A stretch of 64,000 nt of DNA, from positions 124,001-188,000 of the forward strand of contig CAKZLE010000006.1 of assembly GCA_937125225.1 (NCBI GenBank), written 5' to 3'. Below, piece by piece: positions 10,164 to 20,977 of the stretch; positions within the stretch are counted from its first letter, which is position 1, and every line of letters starts with the position of its first letter. Under the pieces are notes generated by a model. The model did not search any database and was not told the origin of the DNA. It saw only the letters and a program-made list of their open reading frames with translations. This DNA comes from an uncultured Spirochaetia bacterium (GTDB lineage Bacteria > Spirochaetota > Spirochaetia > CAKZLE01). The translations under genes were made by a program, and so were the position numbers.

Positions 10164-10194
10164 AGACGGGTCACTTCGGTGACCCGTCTTTTTC
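10164..10194 (+). terminator. Rho-independent terminator after oppA
   Basis: A perfect 11-bp stem (10164-10174 with 10179-10189) is capped by TTCG, an extra-stable tetraloop, and followed by TTTTTC. It is about 25 bases after the oppA stop. Confidence 0.95.
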
Positions 10195-11266: not shown

Positions 11267-12949
11267 CTAATTGGTTATAGGATCCACAGAAAGGATCACA
11301 TCTTCAATAGGAGCTCCTGGAGCTACCATAGGAAGGACTTTATCATCAATTGGAATCTCACAGTCAATCAGGACAGGTCCGTTGGCTGCGAACGCTTCTC
11401 GTAAGACTGATTCGATATCATCTGTAGCACTCAGGGAAAGTCCCTTGACCCCAAAGGCATCAGCAAGCTGTACCCACTTGATGGGATGATCAAGATTTGT
11501 CTCAGAATATCTCTTATCATAGAAGAGTGTCTGCCACTGTCGTACCATTCCCAGAGTATGGTTATTCATCAAGACGATGACAACCGGTATATTATATTTA
11601 GCCAATGTCCCAAGTTCATTACAGTTCATCTGGAAAGAGCCATCACCAGCTATACTGACAATCTGTTTATCTGGTTTCCCGAGTTGTGCACCCATTGCGG
11701 CACCAGTTCCAAAGCCCATGGTACCCAGTCCACCTGATGTGATGAAGGTGTCGGGTTTAGAGAACTTGAAGAATTGTGCTGCCCACATCTGGTGCTGCCC
11801 TACCTCAGTGACGATCACAGCCTCTTCACCAAGTATTTCATGGATCTTCACAAGAATATCTCTTGGACGCTGGTTCTCGGTAGTCACTCTAATTGGATAT
11901 TTCACTTTCCATTGTGCGATCTGTTCCATCCATTCTTCGTGCTTATAGGAGTCTTTCATCAGACCTTTCATCTTGATGAGGACCTCTCTCACATCTCCGA
12001 TGACATGATGATAGGTTCTGATATTCTTATTGATCTCAGCAGGATCGATATCTATATGGAGGATCTTCGCTTTTCTTGCGAATCGGTCAGCCTTACTTAC
12101 CACACGATCACTGAATCTAGCACCGATAACGATAAGAAGGTCAGATCTCGATACAGACATGTTCGCTACTTTTGAACCATGCATACCGATCATTCCCATA
12201 TACTGCTTATGGGCTGCAGGGAAGGAGCCCTTTGCCATAAGAGATACTCCGACTGGCGCCTGTATGGTCTCTGCGAATTCCAAAAACTCTTTCGAAGCTT
12301 TTGATCTGATGATACCACCACCTGCATAGATTACCGGATTCTTCGCTGCTTTGATCAGTTCCAAAGCTTTGATGAGATCATCCTCTTTGATGAGTTCCCC
12401 ATGACGAGAGATCGTTTTGGGCTCTGCATATTCATATTCAGTCTCAAATGCTGTCACATCTTTGGGAATATCGATCAAAACCGGACCAGGTCTTCCTTCT
12501 TGAGCAATATAGAAGGCCTCTCGAATCGTCTCTGCAAGTTTTTTCACATCTTTGACGATGTAATTATGCTTGGTGATCGGCATGGTCACCCCTGCGATAT
12601 CGACCTCCTGGAAACTATCCTTTCCTAAAAGAGATACAGGTACATTACCTGTGATAGCTACCATCGGAGATGAGTCCATATAGGCAGTTGCTATACCGGT
12701 TACGAGGTTCGTCGCTCCGGGACCTGATGTTGCGATACAAACTCCGACCTTTCCTGTCGCTCTAGCATATCCATCAGCAGCATGGGCTGCTCCCTGCTCA
12801 TGAGCAGTAAGAATATGCTTGATACTGTCACTATTTTTATAGAGTTCGTCATAGATGTTCAGAACTGCTCCACCTGGAAAACCGAATACGGTATCTACGC
12901 CTTGTTCCTTCAAACATTCTATTAGGATCTTTGCTCCTCTCATTTTCAT
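11267..12949 (-). CDS. ilvB: Acetolactate synthase large (catalytic) subunit
   Basis: The enzyme condenses pyruvate with pyruvate or 2-oxobutyrate, the first common step to Val, Leu and Ile, using thiamine diphosphate. The 560-residue product has the TPP glutamate in HEQGAAHAADGYAR (E51), the central FAD-fold domain, and the C-terminal TPP motif GDGSFQMN...NNHTLGMVRQW. An AGGAG site precedes the ATG. It is the last gene of the operon, whereas the small subunit is encoded first, about 8 kb upstream. This split arrangement is unusual but leaves both subunits in one transcript. Its length and biosynthetic context favour the anabolic, regulated enzyme over a catabolic AlsS. Confidence 0.95.
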   Translation of the reverse strand: MKMRGAKILIECLKEQGVDTVFGFPGGAVLNIYDELYKNSDSIKHILTAHEQGAAHAADGYARATGKVGVCIATSGPGATNLVTGIATAYMDSSPMVAITGNVPVSLLGKDSFQEVDIAGVTMPITKHNYIVKDVKKLAETIREAFYIAQEGRPGPVLIDIPKDVTAFETEYEYAEPKTISRHGELIKEDDLIKALELIKAAKNPVIYAGGGIIRSKASKEFLEFAETIQAPVGVSLMAKGSFPAAHKQYMGMIGMHGSKVANMSVSRSDLLIVIGARFSDRVVSKADRFARKAKILHIDIDPAEINKNIRTYHHVIGDVREVLIKMKGLMKDSYKHEEWMEQIAQWKVKYPIRVTTENQRPRDILVKIHEILGEEAVIVTEVGQHQMWAAQFFKFSKPDTFITSGGLGTMGFGTGAAMGAQLGKPDKQIVSIAGDGSFQMNCNELGTLAKYNIPVVIVLMNNHTLGMVRQWQTLFYDKRYSETNLDHPIKWVQLADAFGVKGLSLSATDDIESVLREAFAANGPVLIDCEIPIDDKVLPMVAPGAPIEDVILSVDPITN

Positions 12950-12985
12950 AAATCACTCCTGTTTTGTCATAGAGCGATGCCAGTC

Positions 12986-14653
12986 TTAATAGTTCTTCAA
13001 GACTGCCCCTGTACTTGCAGATGTTACCATCGCAGCATATCGTGCAAGGTATCCCGTCACCTTTCTAGGTTCTGGTTTAACCCATGCAGCTTTTCTCTCT
13101 TTCATCTCTTCTTCACTAATAGCGAGCTCGATTAGTCCCTTGGGAATGTCGATATTTATCATATCACCCTCTTGGACCAATCCTATAGGACCACCTTCAG
13201 CAGCCTCTGGTGAGATATGGCCGATCGATGCACCTCTTGTCGCACCACTGAATCGTCCATCGGTGATCAGAGCGACATCCTTATCGAGTCCCATACCGGC
13301 GATTGCTGATGTAGGAGAGAGCATCTCCCTCATACCAGGCCCGCCCTTTGGTCCCTCATAACGAATGACTATCACATCACCTTTATTGATCTCTCCACCG
13401 AGGATAGCCTCATTCACAGCCTCTTCAGACTCGTAGACACGAGCAGGTCCACTATGGGAGAGCATCTCTTTTGCAACAGCAGATTGTTTTACCACACATC
13501 CATCTGGTGCAATATTCCCCTTCAGTACAGCAATACCTCCAGTAACACTCCAGGGAGCATCTATCGGTTTGATGACTTCAAGGTTGAGGTTCACTGCCTT
13601 CTTGATATTCTCAGCGACAGTAGCACCAGTTACGGTGATACAATCGAGATTCAGCAGGTCCTTCTTGGCTAACTCTTTCATCACTGCCTGTACACCACCG
13701 GCTGCATGAAGATCTTCTATATGATCATCACCTGCAGGTGACAGATGGCAGAGATTCGGAGTCTTGGCCGATACATCATTGGCAATATCAATATTGAGTT
13801 CTACTCCAGCCTCATGTGCTATAGCAGGGAGGTGAAGCATACTGTTAGTACTACAACCTAGAGCCATATCGACAGCAAGAGCATTCATGAAGGCTTTCTC
13901 TGTCATGATATCTTTTGGTCTGATATCTGCTTTAAGAACCTCCATGATCTGATGACCAGCCTCTTTGGCAAGTCTATCTCTTTCTGAGAATACAGCTGGG
14001 ATCGTACCATTTCCAGGTAGTCCCAATCCCAACACTTCGGTAAGGCAGTTCATACTGTTCGCGGTAAACATACCAGAACAGGATCCACAGGTAGGACATA
14101 CACTGTCCTCATACTCTTTGAGTTCTTCTTCACTCATCTTTCCTGCAGAGTAGGATCCTACCGCTTCGAAGATCGTTGAGAGACTTGAAGCTCCTCGTGT
14201 CTTTACTTTACCAGCAAGCATCGCACCACCACTGACCACGATCGTAGGGATATTAAGTCTTGCAGCGGCCATGAGCATACCAGGAACGATCTTATCACAA
14301 TTCGGGACCATGACCAGTGCATCGAAAGCATGTGCCATCGCTACTGCTTCGATCGAATCTGCGATCAGTTCTCTCGTACAAAGGGAATAACGCATTCCAG
14401 CATGTCCCATCGCGATACCATCGCAGACACCGATTGCGGGAAACTCCATAGGAGTACCACCATTGGATCGTACTCCGGCTTTCACACCATCTACGATTCT
14501 CTGCAGATGAATATGGCCAGGGATTATCTCGTTCTTGGAGTTTACGATACCGATGAAAGGTCTTTCGATCTCTCGATCTGTCAGACCAAGGGCCTTCATG
14601 AGAGATCTATGGGGTGCTCGTGTTACCCCTTTCTTCGCTCTATCACTTCTCAT
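12986..14653 (-). CDS. ilvD: Dihydroxy-acid dehydratase
   Basis: IlvD dehydrates 2,3-dihydroxy-isovalerate and 2,3-dihydroxy-3-methylvalerate to 2-oxoacids, the third common step of branched-chain synthesis. The 555-residue protein has the family cysteines in PNCDK (C119) and CPTCGSC (C186, C189, C192). Its first motif reads [14 protein letters not shown], with P-G-H as in the E. coli oxygen-sensitive [4Fe-4S] enzyme rather than the P-C-N of [2Fe-2S] types, which suits an anaerobe. A GAGAGGAAG ribosome site precedes the ATG. It lies 17 bases after leuB and 36 bases before ilvB. Confidence 0.96.
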
Positions 14654-14670
14654 ATCTTCTTCCTCTCGTA

Positions 14671-15741
14671 TTATAGTGATTCCAGGATCAGTTTTCCCAT
14701 CTCGGATGTACCAATCAGTTTCATTCCTTCACTCATGATATCACCGGTTCGGTAATCATTAGCAAGTGCATTGTCGACCGCTTTCTCTATATCATCTGCC
14801 TCTGCTGTGAGACCGAATGTATATCTGAGCATCATCGCTACAGATAGGATCGTTGCGATAGGATTCGCTTTATCCATTCCTGCGATATCAGGTGCAGAGC
14901 CATGAACTGGTTCATATAATCCGAAGCTTCCTTCACCAAGGCTTGCCGAGGGGAGCATCCCGATAGAACCGGTGATCATACTAGCCTCATCGGAGAGGAT
15001 ATCTCCGAACATGTTCGAGGTCACGATGACATCGAACTGATGAGGGTCTCGAACTAGCTGCATAGCAGCATTATCAACATACATATGATTTAAGGTCACC
15101 TCAGGATAGTCTTTAGCGACCTCTTCTACGGTTGCTCTCCAAAGTCGTGAACTATCAAGGATGTTGGCTTTATCGACACTCATCACCTTCTTGTCTCGTT
15201 TCATTGCGATCTCGAATGCCAACACGGCAATTCTTTTCACCTCTGGATAGGTATACATCATGGTATCATAGGCTTTAGCTCCTGAAGGAAGTTCTTCAGT
15301 CCCTCGTTCACCAAAATAGATTCCACCTGTGAGTTCTCGAACAACACAGATATCAAGTCCGTCACCGATGATGTCGGCTCGAAGAGGGCATGCATCGATC
15401 AGCTGTTTATAGAGGATTGCCGGTCTGAGGTTCGCATAAAGGCCTAGACCTGCTCGGAGTCCGAGGAGTGCCTGTTCAGGCCTCATACTGCCCTCGAGAT
15501 CATCCCATTTCGGTCCACCAACAGCTCCTAGAAGAACTGCATCACTTCCTTTACAGACTTCAAGAGTCTTGGCAGGTAAAGGTTCTCCAACCGCATCGAG
15601 AGCTGCACCACCGGCTAGTACTTCAGTATAGGCAAATGAGTGTCCATACTTCTCACCGATCTTATCTAAAACTAGTTTTGCTTCTGTCACAATATCTGGG
15701 CCAATACCATCTCCTGGTACGACTGCAATCTTTATATCCAT
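14671..15741 (-). CDS. leuB: 3-isopropylmalate dehydrogenase
   Basis: LeuB oxidatively decarboxylates 3-isopropylmalate to 2-oxoisocaproate in leucine synthesis. In the citramalate route the same enzyme usually also handles 3-methylmalate. I start it at the ATG at 15741 ([16 protein letters not shown]), because an earlier in-frame ATG at 15750 sits directly on the AAGGAG site. It has 356 residues. The NAD-binding and metal motifs are present ([43 protein letters not shown] and HGSAPDIAG). It lies between cimA and ilvD. leuC and leuD are not in the window. Confidence 0.95.
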
Positions 15742-15778
15742 TATTCTCATTCTCCTTATACGTTTTTTAGCTCTATTA

Positions 15779-17347
15779 TTATGCCTGCATCAGGCGATAT
15801 TCTATCGAATCAACTAGGGCCAACCAACTGGCCTGAATGATGTCTGTCGAGACTCCGACAGTCGTCCAAGTCCTCATACCATCAGTGGATTCGATCAATA
15901 CTCGAACCCTTGCAGCAGAGGCCTGTTTAGAATCAAGAACTCGAACCTTATAGTCGGTGAGACTCACATGTTTGAGGACAGGATAGAAGACTTCAAGAGC
16001 CTTTCTCAAGGCCTTATCCAAAGCATTGACTGGACCATCGCCCTCTGCAGCGGTGATCTCCTCAGTCCCATCGACCCTGATCTTCACGATCGCGGAACTA
16101 CTAGTCGCTCTCTCTTCACTTGGTTGCTCACCGATAGTCTTGAAATGAACGAGTTCGAAGAACGGACGATACTTTCCAAGATGTTTTCTGATAACCAATT
16201 CAAAAGAACTCTCAGCTGCTTCGAACTGATAGCCCTCCATCTCGAGCTCCTTGAGTCGTTTGATGATTGCCTTAGTCTCAGGGGAGTCTTTCGCTAGATC
16301 CGGAGAGACTTTCTGGATCTTCTTTAGGATCATAGACCTACCGGCAACCTCCGACATCAGCAGACGTCTCTCATTACCTACGCTCTGTGGCTGAATATGT
16401 TCGAAGGAGAGCGGGTTCTTCCCTATCCCGTCTATATGCATCCCACCCTTATGGGCGAAGGAGCTCTTTCCTACATAAGGCATCCCATGAGGGATCCTGA
16501 TATTCGCGATCTCTGCTATGAGAGTCGCAGTACTCGTGAGCATGGTCAAAGACCCCTCGGGCAATGAAGGGATTCCCATCTTTACTTCGAAAGCAGGAAT
16601 GAGCGTAGAGAGGTTCGCATTACCGCATCTCTCACCGAAGCCTACGAAAGTCCCTTGGACATGAGAAGCCCCAGCCTCGACCGCTTGAACTGAATTTGCC
16701 ACAGCCATACCTGAATCGTTGTGTGTATGAATACCGATCTTGCTGTCAGGACAATGTTTCACCACTGCTGTTGTTGCTTCGAAGACTTGAGAAGGAAGCG
16801 CTCCCCCATTGGTCTCACAGAGAACGAGGGTCGTTGCTCCCCCTTCAATAGCTGCATCAAGTGTCTTTAGAGCATATTCAGGATTACTCTTGTATCCATC
16901 AAAGAAGTGCTCAGCATCGAAGATGACCTCTTTACCCTTCTCCTTGAAGAAGGCGATCGTATCACGGATCATTGCCAGGTTCTCTTCATGAGTAGTCCTG
17001 ATTATCTCAGTCACATGAAAGTCCCAGCTCTTTCCGAAGATCACAGCTACCGGTGTATTTGCCTGAAGCATGGACTGTACATTCACATCATCCTCTACTC
17101 TTATATCACGCCTTCTTGTACTACCAAAAGCACAGAGTCTTGCATGTTTGAGATCAAGGGACTCTGCAGCTTTGAAGAACTCAAGATCCTTCGGGTTCGA
17201 ACCCGGATTACCAGCCTCTACATAAGCGACACCAATAGTATCAAGAGCTTTAAGGATCTGAACCTTATCATGCACGGAGAAGGATATCCCTTCACCTTGA
17301 GCACCATCTCTCAGTGTTGAATCGAATATCTCTATAGTTCTATGCAT
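15779..17347 (-). CDS. cimA: (R)-citramalate synthase
   Basis: CimA condenses acetyl-CoA with pyruvate to citramalate, giving 2-oxobutyrate for isoleucine without threonine dehydratase. The 522-residue enzyme has the HMGL-like barrel opening ([19 protein letters not shown]), metal ligands in the HTHND motif, and a C-terminal LeuA-type allosteric domain ([16 protein letters not shown]). The GAQGEG form of the N-terminal motif, against GEQAPG in the neighbouring LeuA, marks the long citramalate synthase group. The ATG at 17347 has GAGG upstream and overlaps the leuA stop by eight bases. Confidence 0.92.
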
Positions 17348-18860
17348 GGTTGGCCTCACTCGCTAATCGATTCACAGCATACAGACAAGCCTTGATACTT
17401 GCACCTACGACATCGGTACTTACTCCACGACCGTTATACACTTTCCCATCAGCTCGTATCCTGACGGATACCTCACCAAGAGCATCCTTACCCCCGGTTA
17501 CCGCATGGATATGATATTCTTCCAACGTAAAGGTGATACCGGTGATTCTTTCGACAGCCTTGAAAGAGGCATCGACCGGACCATCTCCTGTAGCAACATC
17601 CTGAAGTACCTCATCATCTTTCGTGAGTGTCATACAGGCTGTAGCGGTCATATTGTTACCAGAATTGATAACGAAATTCTCTAATTTGAAGATCTCCTTG
17701 ATATCTGAAGATCTATTTTCGATGAGTGCTTCGATATCACGATCTGATACACTCTTCTTCTTATCAGCAAGAATCTTGAACTGAGCGAACAGTTCAGTCA
17801 TCTCCTCTTTGTTCTCTGATGAGAAGCCAAGAGATTCGACTCGATCGATGAAGGCATGATGGCCGGAATGTTTTCCAAGGACCATCTTGTTCTCTTGGAG
17901 TCCGATTGATTCAGGAGTCATGATCTCATAGGTCTCGGAGTTGGCAAGGATCCCATGCTGGTGAATCCCTGATTCGTGTGCGAACGCGTTGGCTCCGACG
18001 ATTGCCTTATTGGGCTGAACGGAAACTCCGGTGATCGTTGAGATCAGTCTACTAGTACGGTGGATCTCTGTCGTCTTGATATTCGTCTCAAGACCATAGA
18101 CATCCTTACGAGTATCGAGGATCATCGCCAGTTCTTCGAGAGCAGCATTACCTGCCCTCTCTCCTATACCGTTCATAGTACATTCCAACTGAGTCGCTCC
18201 TGCTCTTGCAGCAGCCAATGTATTAGCTACACCCAATCCAAGGTCGTTATGACAATGAACTGAGATGATCGCCTTATCGATATTGGGGACATTCTCTTTG
18301 ATTCCCCTGATCAATGCACCATACTCATCGGGAGTCGTGTATCCCACAGTATCCGGAACGTTGATGACTGAAGCTCCGGCATCGATGACTGCTTCGAATA
18401 CCCGATATAAGAACTCCCATTCACTACGGGAGGCATCTTCAGCTGAGAACTCGATTTCTGGACAGAGGTTCCTTGCATAGGCGACCATAGTCTTTGCCTG
18501 CTCGAGTACTGCAGCCTCGTCCATCTTCAGTTTGTATTTCATATGGATCGGTGAGGTTGCGATGAAGGTATGGATCCTTGGACTCACGGCCTTCTTGACA
18601 GCACCCCAGGATGCATCGATGTCCTTCTTCAGTGAGCGAGAAAGACTTGCAACGGTACAGTTCTTCACTGTCGCTGCTACAGCTTCGATAGCTGCAAAAT
18701 CACCAGGAGATGCAATAGCGAAACCAGCTTCCATGACATCGACCTGTAGGGCTTCCAGCTGTTTTGCTAGTCGTACTTTCTCTTCAAGATTCATACTGTA
18801 TCCCGGTGCCTGTTCTCCATCTCGTAATGTCGTATCAAATATATAAACTCGTTCTGCCAT
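17340..18860 (-). CDS. leuA: 2-isopropylmalate synthase
   Basis: LeuA condenses acetyl-CoA and 2-oxoisovalerate, the committed step to leucine. The start is the ATG at 18860 (MAERVYIFDTTLRDGEQAPG), with GGAG upstream; the frame stays open further upstream without a ribosome site. The 506-residue protein has the catalytic barrel with SVHCHNDLG and ECTMNGIGERAGN, then HESGIHQHGIL. A C-terminal regulatory domain (GDGPVDASFKAVERITG) is where leucine feedback normally binds. It is followed with overlap by its paralogue cimA. Confidence 0.95.
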   Translation of the reverse strand: MAERVYIFDTTLRDGEQAPGYSMNLEEKVRLAKQLEALQVDVMEAGFAIASPGDFAAIEAVAATVKNCTVASLSRSLKKDIDASWGAVKKAVSPRIHTFIATSPIHMKYKLKMDEAAVLEQAKTMVAYARNLCPEIEFSAEDASRSEWEFLYRVFEAVIDAGASVINVPDTVGYTTPDEYGALIRGIKENVPNIDKAIISVHCHNDLGLGVANTLAAARAGATQLECTMNGIGERAGNAALEELAMILDTRKDVYGLETNIKTTEIHRTSRLISTITGVSVQPNKAIVGANAFAHESGIHQHGILANSETYEIMTPESIGLQENKMVLGKHSGHHAFIDRVESLGFSSENKEEMTELFAQFKILADKKKSVSDRDIEALIENRSSDIKEIFKLENFVINSGNNMTATACMTLTKDDEVLQDVATGDGPVDASFKAVERITGITFTLEEYHIHAVTGGKDALGEVSVRIRADGKVYNGRGVSTDVVGASIKACLYAVNRLASEANHA

Positions 18861-18933
18861 TTCTCTCCTGCTCCTATGTAAATCATCTACATGACTGACA
18901 GGTGGGAACCTGCCAGCCATTCCATTGTATGTG

Positions 18934-19929
18934 CTATTTCTTTAACCAGCTCATCAATGATCGGAGTTTCTTACCAACAATCTCAATCGGATGGTTAGCG
19001 TCGATTCTCTTTCTTGCATTGAAGTTAGGTCTTCCAACCTGGTTTTCCATGATCCAGTTTCGTGCAAATACACCTTCCTGAATCTCAGAGAGGACTTTCT
19101 TCATCTCTTTTCTTGTATCATCAGTGATGATTCTTCGTCCGATCATATAATCACCATATTCAGCGGTATCACTGATAGAGTATCTCATATACTCGAGTCC
19201 ACCCTGGTTGATCAGGTCTACGATGAGTTTCATCTCATGACAACATTCGAAGTATGCCATCGTTGGGCTGTATCCAGCCTCTACAAGGGTATCGAATCCA
19301 GCTTTGATCAATTCTGATACACCACCACAAAGAACAGCCTGTTCTCCAAAGAGGTCAGTCTCTGTCTCTTCTGTGAAAGAGGTCTCAAAGATTCCTGCTC
19401 GTCCACCACCGACTCCTGCAGCGTATGCTAGAGCTACCTCTTTCGAGTCCCCTGATGGATCCTGATGAGTAGCGATCAAACAAGGAACACCCTTTCCTTC
19501 CTGGAACTGAGTTCTTACTGTATGACCAGGTCCCTTAGGAGCGATCATGATGACATTGATATCCGCTGAAGGTTTGATCTGACCGAAATGGATATTGAAT
19601 CCATGAGCGAAAGCAAGGTAATCTCCTGGTTTCAGGTTGTCTTTGATGCTCTCTTGATATAGCTTAGCCTGTAGCTCGTCATTGACGAGAAGCATAATAA
19701 CATCTGCAGCTGCAGCTGCCTCAGCAGCGACCATGACCTTCAGTCCAGCCTCTTCTGCGATTGCCCATGACTTTGAACCTTCATAAAGACCAACGACTAC
19801 GTTGACTCCTGACTCATGGAGGTTGAGTGCATGTGCATGTCCCTGGCTACCATATCCAATAATAGCTACTGTCTTTCCTTCCAACAGACCCATATTGGCA
19901 TCTGATTCGTAATAAATCTTGTCTTCCAT
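18934..19929 (-). CDS. ilvC: Ketol-acid reductoisomerase (class I)
   Basis: IlvC isomerises and reduces acetolactate or acetohydroxybutyrate, the second common step. The 331-residue, short-form enzyme has the Rossmann motif GYGSQGHA (25-32) and catalytic residues in [10 protein letters not shown]. Metal ligands lie in [12 protein letters not shown] and YFECCHE. The cofactor-specificity loop reads [10 protein letters not shown]. Where NADP-dependent relatives such as the Azotobacter enzyme have Arg then Ser, this one has Y49 and E50, so NADH use is possible (inference). It starts three bases after ilvN. Confidence 0.96.
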
Positions 19930-19932
19930 TAG

Positions 19933-20448
19933 TTACATCTCCTTCCTATTCATATCATCACTGATTGTCTCATCGCCTCGACCGATTGCGGACATACCGG
20001 TTCTTACAATTTCCTTTATACCAAAGGGTTCGATTAATCTGATAAAAGCTGAAAGCTTATCTTGATCCCCTGTGATTTCCATCGATACTGATGCTGCATC
20101 CACATCTATGATCTTCGCTTTGAAGATATCTGTGATCTGAACAACCTCAGAACGGTTCTGCTGTGTAGCACATACCTTGATCAGAAGTAACTCTCTATAC
20201 ACAGAGTCTTTCCTCTTTAATTCCTTGATATGCAGTACATCTATCAATTTTGCCAACTGCTTGGTGATCTGTTCGAGAACGGTATGATCTCCATAGACTA
20301 CGATCGTCATACGAGATACCTCAGGATCCTCAGTCGTTCCCACAGAGAGACTGTCAATATTGTATCCTCGACGACTGAATAATCCTGCAATCCGACTTAA
20401 TACACCAGAGTGGTTGTTCACTAATACTGATAAAATATATCGATCCAT
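19933..20448 (-). CDS. ilvN: Acetolactate synthase small (regulatory) subunit
   Basis: The small subunit activates the catalytic subunit and carries valine feedback control. The ATG at 20448 (MDRYILSVLVNNHSGVLSRI) is correct because the earlier in-frame ATG at 20466 is part of the AAAGGAG region. The 171-residue protein has an N-terminal ACT domain (about 3-75; SGVLSRIAGLFSRRGYNIDSL is the classic effector-site segment, 21 residues shown in part by its ends SGVL and IDSL) and a second ACT-like half (about 80-160). It is the first structural gene of the operon, about 155 bases after the leader peptide stop. Confidence 0.94.
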   Translation of the reverse strand: MDRYILSVLVNNHSGVLSRIAGLFSRRGYNIDSLSVGTTEDPEVSRMTIVVYGDHTVLEQITKQLAKLIDVLHIKELKRKDSVYRELLLIKVCATQQNRSEVVQITDIFKAKIIDVDAASVSMEITGDQDKLSAFIRLIEPFGIKEIVRTGMSAIGRGDETISDDMNRKEM

Positions 20449-20531
20449 ACTCAACTCCTTTTGCATCCTTGTTCATGCTATTTGTTCATGGTTAGTTCAA
20501 GCCCTGCTCTTACCACTCATGATATACGATT

Positions 20532-20610
20532 CCTAGGAGAGATGCATCTATAGACACCACCCCCCTAGGCCTTTTATCTATGACCTTTTGGCTATCGGTA
20601 AGCTCTATAG
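20532..20610 (-). promoter_or_regulatory. Candidate attenuator structures of the ilv leader
   Basis: After the leader-peptide stop the transcript can form a 10-bp stem (20569-20560 with 20541-20532, CCTAGGGGGG against CTCTCCTAGG, with G-U pairs) around an 18-base loop. In competition, CTATAGA at the end of the leader ORF (20610-20604) can pair with TCTATAG in that loop (20554-20548). No U-run follows, so this is not a textbook intrinsic terminator; control could act through Rho or translation. The pairing scheme is inference. Confidence 0.4.
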
Positions 20611-20853
20611 GCTAATAATGACGACGTTAATTAGGTTTATTAGTACTAGTACGATTGGTAGTAGGACAATTACAGGTGTAATTGCAGATGGTAGAAGAGA
20701 GACAATAATGACAGATAGGAGGAGAAGAAGTGTTACTAAGGAAATAGTCTTAAAGAAATCTGATTGTTTTTCTGTTTGCTCACTACACTTCGTCATCCAA
20801 TTACTAAAGGAGGGACGACAGGTGTGGGAGCAGTTCTCCATACACATTGTCAT
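20605..20853 (-). CDS. Branched-chain amino acid leader peptide (82 codons)
   Basis: This is a regulatory leader ORF, not an enzyme. It begins about 25 bases after the predicted transcription start, with AGAGG before the ATG. The first ~36 residues are polar with four cysteines. The last 46 contain about 33 Leu, Ile or Val residues, including LLLLL, SVIIVSLL and IVLVLINLI, and the ORF ends about 155 bases before ilvN. Eight of the 14 Leu codons there are CTA. Ribosome stalling when Leu-, Ile- or Val-tRNA is short would couple supply to operon expression, as known for ilvL, ivbL and leuL. Those leaders are only about 28-32 codons, so this one is very long. A small membrane protein is the alternative. 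Confidence 0.75.
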   Translation of the reverse strand: MTMCMENCSHTCRPSFSNWMTKCSEQTEKQSDFFKTISLVTLLLLLSVIIVSLLPSAITPVIVLLPIVLVLINLINVVIISL

Positions 20854-20885
20854 GATATACCTCTGTATAAAACATAGTTTGTATT

Positions 20886-20914
20886 ACTATAAAATCCTGA
20901 GGGGTCTTAGTCAA
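20886..20914 (-). promoter_or_regulatory. Promoter of the ilv-leu-cim operon
   Basis: On the minus strand TTGACT (20914-20909) and TATAGT (20891-20886) are separated by exactly 17 bases, giving a start near 20879. AT-rich DNA lies upstream. The mRNA leader before ilvN is about 430 bases and contains the leader peptide. Confidence 0.85.
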
Positions 20915-20977
20915 GAAGATGTTTTATTTTATTAGTATATTTTATGTATAAATATTACTTTTTTTGTATATTTCATA

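Follow-up and report, generated by a model that had tools for sequence, protein, structure and literature searches.

An 82-codon leader ending in Leu, Ile and Val codons upstream of ilvN in an uncultured spirochaete: apparently the long form of a widespread attenuation switch

The branched-chain amino acid (BCAA) genes of an uncultured Spirochaetia bacterium are preceded by an open reading frame of 82 codons that ends in a long run of Leu, Ile and Val codons, and the question is what this reading frame does for the genes behind it. The window, i.e. the whole stretch of 64,000 nucleotides that was analysed, is part of a host genome of 3.43 Mb (G000), and the leader, its signals and the operon are all on the minus strand. 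NCBIfam names the genes 3' of the leader, in order, as ilvN, ilvC, leuA, cimA, leuB, ilvD and ilvB, which bears out the initial annotation in placing BCAA genes directly behind it, and aroA (NCBIfam) lies upstream in divergent orientation. The first enzyme gene of the operon, ilvN, codes for the acetolactate synthase small subunit (19933-20448), and ilvC to ilvB occupy 11267-19929. The start of ilvN is most likely at 20448 (MDRYILSV), since a Shine-Dalgarno sequence AAGGAG is present at 20460-20455 and the MD/ERY start is conserved; it replaces a start at 20466.

The leader ORF (20853-20605) begins with ATG behind a Shine-Dalgarno sequence GAGGT (20859-20863) and a sigma-70-type promoter, TTGACT-17-TATAGT (20886-20914), which with 10/12 matches is one of the two top-scoring promoter matches within 20 kb. 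The peptide has two distinct parts. Codons 1-36 (20746-20853) are polar, rich in Ser, Thr, Cys and Met, and do not contain a single Leu, Ile or Val (0/36, binomial p = 4e-5 compared to 24.5 % in the window genes). Codons 37-82 (20608-20745) form the branched-chain run, in which 33 of the 46 residues are Leu, Ile or Val, followed by the stop codon TAG (20605-20607). CTA accounts for 8 of the 14 leader Leu codons compared to 11 % in 11 window genes (p = 3e-5), and ATT for 8 of the 10 Ile codons compared to 19 % (p = 5e-5). The initial annotation, which had described the promoter and separate ribosome site, about 33 branched-chain residues among the last 46 and a preference for CTA, was thus accurate on the locus. 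The 82-aa leader has no NCBIfam family match, and the Rfam covariance models for leaders, T-boxes and riboswitches gave no match at the window locus or at the loci of its relatives. A weak second leader match elsewhere in the genome (C3; E = 1.8, with a stop inside) was taken as chance.

Upstream of the promoter there is a palindrome, TATTTATACATAAAATA (20938-20954, minus strand), which is similar to an ArgR box, and AT-rich TATTTATGCATAAATA / TGCATAAAyATAC sites occur at the same position in most relatives. These palindromes adjoin the 5' side of the -35 box in the window and in L120, L123-L125, L127, L136, L143, L144 and L163. From their resemblance to ArgR boxes we infer an assignment to ArgR, and an argR gene was found in G000. 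The sites suggest that a second, transcriptional layer of control may exist at the operon.

When the leader peptide alone was used as a query, G001 was the sole convincing match. The region upstream of ilvN was therefore scanned in whole-genome and named collections, and eight loci without a credible leader were dropped. In total, 78 loci have a leader ORF ending in a Leu/Ile/Val run upstream of ilvN. One cluster of Spirochaetia families (f1, which includes the window, f3, f8 and f17) accounts for 76 of these loci, and the remaining two, which are less certain, belong to f26. Family f8 is Sphaerochaetaceae-like, because two of its genomes have an ilvN identical to that of Sphaerochaetaceae MAGs with names (L060, L071); a further member bears the label Candidatus Ornithospirochaeta (L115). 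The leader-to-ilvN distance is mostly 76-140 bp, with a maximum of 206 bp, and a promoter with TTGACA/T, 17-18 nt spacing and a TATAAN or TACAAN box is at the same position in most relatives. No leader was present before ilvN in the three f24 loci examined or in the Clostridia loci, and in genomes with the order ilvB-ilvN, ilvB lies directly upstream of ilvN, in the place of the leader. Over the set, leader lengths range from 17 to 84 aa; the starts were picked by Shine-Dalgarno match and some are approximate, the lengths for L136 and L144 being probably underestimates.

Some further reading frames were observed in the scan. In f36, a conserved 54-aa ORF (MAGE...LDRRGRLASAA.VRAAFA.QNPTLS.LYIL.IIVLLLILG) lies 230-430 bp upstream of ilvN (L202, 304-468; L203, 111-275) and may represent either another kind of leader or a small membrane protein. 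In f26, ORFs of 36 and 55 aa (L208, L209; MTGKSW.R.GF...VLLVVIS) with a strong Shine-Dalgarno sequence precede a second ilvN type, and these are possibly an independent BCAA leader.

The short-leader relatives have the clearest anatomy. Behind leaders of 17-30 aa the RNA contains three segments, CCACGG at the stop codon, CCCGTGG, and a complement followed by 6-8 U. In 37 of 38 short-leader loci, the first 14 nt contain a better complement to the terminator arm than shuffled sequences do (p < 0.05), and in these 37 the complement begins at a distance of 1-4 nt, counted from the stop codon's first base. More broadly, 61 of the 78 members have CYRCGG at most 10 nt from the stop, and in 60 of these CCGYGG follows 20-75 nt further on. 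The outer helix of the CCACGG hairpin is invariant, and the inner helix has four double-change pairs, which is not clearly above shuffled sequences. Read from sequence, the arrangement is a complete antiterminator/U-tract terminator switch, i.e. a textbook attenuator. Judging from this anatomy, the first segment would be hidden under a ribosome that has reached the stop codon, which allows the terminator to form, and would be exposed when the ribosome stalls upstream, which allows the antiterminator to form instead.

The longer leaders depart from this arrangement in steps. In several f8 genera with leaders of 40-71 aa CCACGG/CCGTGG is kept and the U-tract is gone, and antiterminator/terminator pairing is also supported in several of the loci with leaders of this length. 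In the version found in f1, f3 and f17, the window included (66-84 aa), the leader and a hairpin are kept, and neither CCACGG/CCGTGG nor the U-tract was found in the window or its five nearest relatives; the earlier doubt about an enteric-type mechanism was in this respect justified. U-tract terminators accompany nearly every leader of at most 38 aa and almost none above that length (46 compared to 32 loci, p = 4e-13), a link that on the ilvN tree comes down to 2-3 independent pairs, which all agree in direction but are too few to be significant. Judged by eye, L183 is a likely missed positive in this count and L131 a false positive. The clearest case within a clade is the f8 genus g91, in which the 35- and 38-aa leaders (L146 and L143, respectively) have U-rich tails and the 50-71 aa relatives are without.

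In the window, a hairpin CCTAGGGGGG...CTCTCCTAGG without a U-tract is predicted behind the leader stop (20532-20569, minus strand), in both the free and the ribosome-masked folds, and it is a candidate termination or pause hairpin. The absence of a U-run behind this CCTAGG stem, already claimed in the initial annotation, was found to be correct. As the window has U-run terminators at other sites, e.g. 10164-10189, the missing U-tract is not simply a habit of the organism. Conservation of the CCTAGG stem, which had been proposed as a check, holds in part: the hairpin has a positional equivalent in the sister genus, where it aligns with the CCCG...CGGG hairpin of G001 with two compensatory pairs (U-A to C-G and A-U to G-C, a hand count on the alignment), but the stem is common to no other relatives. 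A three-segment switch with uninterrupted stems was not significant in the window (p = 0.87). Two further helices, a hand-found one between the stop region CTATAGAGCTTACC and GGTGGTGTCTATAG (12/14) and an outer one, CTTACC/GGTAAG, are possible only, and were not relied on.

Just behind the hairpin lies GTATAT (20522-20527, minus strand), the window copy of a TATAT/TATACC motif. TATACC is present in 12 of 24 U-less members compared to 0.8 expected, and TATACC/TATAT in the U-less members is located about 64-78 nt past the leader stop, 6-8 nt beyond the hairpin, and may be a pause site, a release site or a helix partner. On the minus strand, GTATATCATGA is present as a direct repeat of 11 nt, once at the leader start (20850-20860) and again behind the hairpin (20517-20527), where the second copy opens a 7-codon ORF (MSGKSRA).

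We consider it likely that the ORF is a BCAA-sensing attenuation leader which sets readthrough into ilvN-ilvC-leuA-cimA-leuB-ilvD-ilvB, because the sensor codons are conserved in position and the switch is complete in the short-leader relatives. The translating ribosome would gauge charged Leu-, Ile- and Val-tRNA on the leader. With BCAA plentiful, it would pass the rare-codon run, reach the stop codon and mask the RNA immediately 3' of it, and transcription would end before ilvN; with BCAA scarce, it would stall in the run, the RNA behind the stop would be free and the polymerase would continue. The switch would thus probably turn the pathway down when Leu, Ile and Val are plentiful, and we infer the same sign and logic for the leader in the window as for those of the short-leader relatives. 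For the output step in the window, termination or pausing at the hairpin 20569-20532, possibly with Rho, is the reading that we favour.

The strongest competitor keeps the same sensor and couples it to Rho. In this version the run, which is long, rich in C and poor in G, would itself be the rut site, shielded by a stalled ribosome or by a queue of stalled ribosomes, and once the ribosome finishes, Rho would load and terminate transcription before ilvN. The strongest C>G stretch of the locus does lie in the run, with 26 C and 5 G per 78 nt, above all 968 gene windows, a rho gene is present, and the sign fits, with starvation switching the operon on. The U-less leaders also have longer runs (median 32 codons compared to 16) and a larger C-G difference (24 compared to 12 per 78 nt). 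Taken together, the long C>G run, the larger C excess in the U-less leaders and the rho gene make a Rho-dependent version plausible. However, the C excess is as expected from the amino acids under the codon use of the genome (z = 1.0), so there is no support for selection towards C>G over and above what the amino acids impose, a hairpin conserved in position is not required by Rho, and the link between length and U-tract is backed by the 2-3 independent changes only. We therefore hold this version to be possible, though it is not the one we would expect.

Control of ilvN translation, or of mRNA stability, in place of transcription is improbable. The structure behind the stop would in that case alter access to the ilvN start, and the lack of the usual kind of terminator in the window version would be accommodated. 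However, about 70 nt separate the end of the hairpin from the Shine-Dalgarno sequence of ilvN, no conserved pairing between the hairpin and the ribosome site of ilvN was found, and the short-leader relatives clearly use terminators.

The way in which the leader is conserved bears on whether its peptide has a function of its own. In 25 long leaders, Leu, Ile and Val make up 3.5 % of the N-terminal part compared to 24.5 % in the window genes, while the last 20 residues of 73 unique leaders are 61 % Ile, Leu or Val and about 7.5 % Phe, Met, Ala and Gly together. CTA makes up 23-27 % of the leader Leu codons compared to 0-2 % in the neighbouring ilvN and ilvC, and ATT 51-65 % of the Ile codons compared to 20-22 %. 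GTA makes up 61 % of the Val codons in the leaders of the U-less members compared to 14 % in ilvN and ilvC, and CTG is depleted in the leaders. The N-terminal half drifts, and its indels are in multiples of three. Between the window and G001, codon positions 1, 2 and 3 differ in 13, 5 and 26 of 37 Ile/Leu/Val columns, and in 12, 16 and 23 of the 44 other columns, respectively, a comparison which is supporting evidence only since protein alignment favours agreement at the second position. The leader is thus conserved as codon composition and not as protein sequence, and the check set out in the initial annotation came out in favour of the leader: the ORF, its position, the branched-chain run and the rare codons are kept across many genera upstream of ilvN, while the rest drifts. 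In the longest leaders, whose N-terminal half is Cys-rich and drifts elsewhere, a weak (R)TCxPS motif was observed at residues 8-15 (window, L120, L122 and L124).

Such a pattern of composition and codons is expected for a codon sensor but not for a membrane protein. The hydrophobic C-terminal 46 residues would suit a small, independent membrane protein encoded on the same transcript as the BCAA genes, but the lengths vary from 17 to 84 aa, Ile, Leu and Val are specifically enriched over Phe, Met, Ala and Gly, rare codons are preferred, the N-terminal half drifts, RNA structures are located at the stop codon and no family match was obtained, which makes this explanation very improbable. A chance ORF, for which nothing more than the missing database match speaks, is refuted by the conservation of its position in 78 loci and can practically be dismissed.

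The enterobacterial leaders of ilvL, ivbL and leuL are about 28-32 aa long, compared to the 82 aa of the window leader. Like the latter, they are rich in the regulated amino acids and precede ilv or leu genes, and leuL has rare CUA codons, as does the window leader. They share an antiterminator and a U-tract terminator with the short-leader relatives, although with four RNA segments instead of three, and in this they are unlike the window, where the U-tract is absent and no antiterminator was found. In Mycobacterium tuberculosis ilvB1NC and Staphylococcus aureus ilvD, the latter with a leader of 26 aa, it has been proposed that the antiterminator is masked when the ribosome is at the stop codon and freed when the ribosome stalls (PMC13236596, PMC5794164). 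This is the same logic as in the short-leader relatives; these systems, however, have U-tract or Rho-independent terminators, unlike the window, and belong to other phyla with another first gene, with no sequence relation shown.

BCAA-rich uORFs before ilvB are known from the Leptospira ilvB motif, ilvB-OMG and ilvB-II, and some of the ilvB-OMG uORFs are reported to be much longer than the rest (PMC8632094, PMC10272879). The Leptospira motif, with 7 members in that genus only (PMC8632094, PMC10272879), is also from a spirochaete, yet it precedes ilvB, whereas the leader in the window precedes ilvN. In Streptomyces coelicolor, an Ile/Leu/Val leader can exist before ilvB without its codons mattering (PMC1262725), and this counts against the attenuation reading, because such codons can be without effect. 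The Rho-dependent Escherichia coli tnaC and the mycobacterial cys leaders without terminators resemble the window in having no visible intrinsic terminator (PMC1262725). As in tnaC, a stalled ribosome could shield Rho sites in the window leader as well, but the window differs in having a conserved hairpin behind the leader and in that no arrest peptide motif was found.

The open-access literature searched contained no account of BCAA attenuation in Sphaerochaetales-like spirochaetes, an absence which is not proof of novelty; the BCAA leaders described there are from other phyla and from the Leptospira ilvB motif (PMC8632094, PMC10272879). The window thus apparently contains the long form of a widespread and so far undescribed spirochaete switch, in which the long, U-less form is new and the kind of attenuation leader is already known. 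Tentatively, these spirochaetes may have two interchangeable designs of BCAA attenuator. One would be a short leader with a U-tract terminator. The other would be a long leader with a BCAA-free loading stretch and a sensing run of 28-46 codons, which has dropped the U-tract and ends transcription either by a U-less hairpin or by the run itself, which could e.g. be a Rho site that stalled ribosomes shield. With dozens of members and leaders of 17-84 codons, the family amounts to a natural experiment in the matching of leader length, ribosome loading and terminator type, and makes it testable why some attenuators manage without a U-tract.
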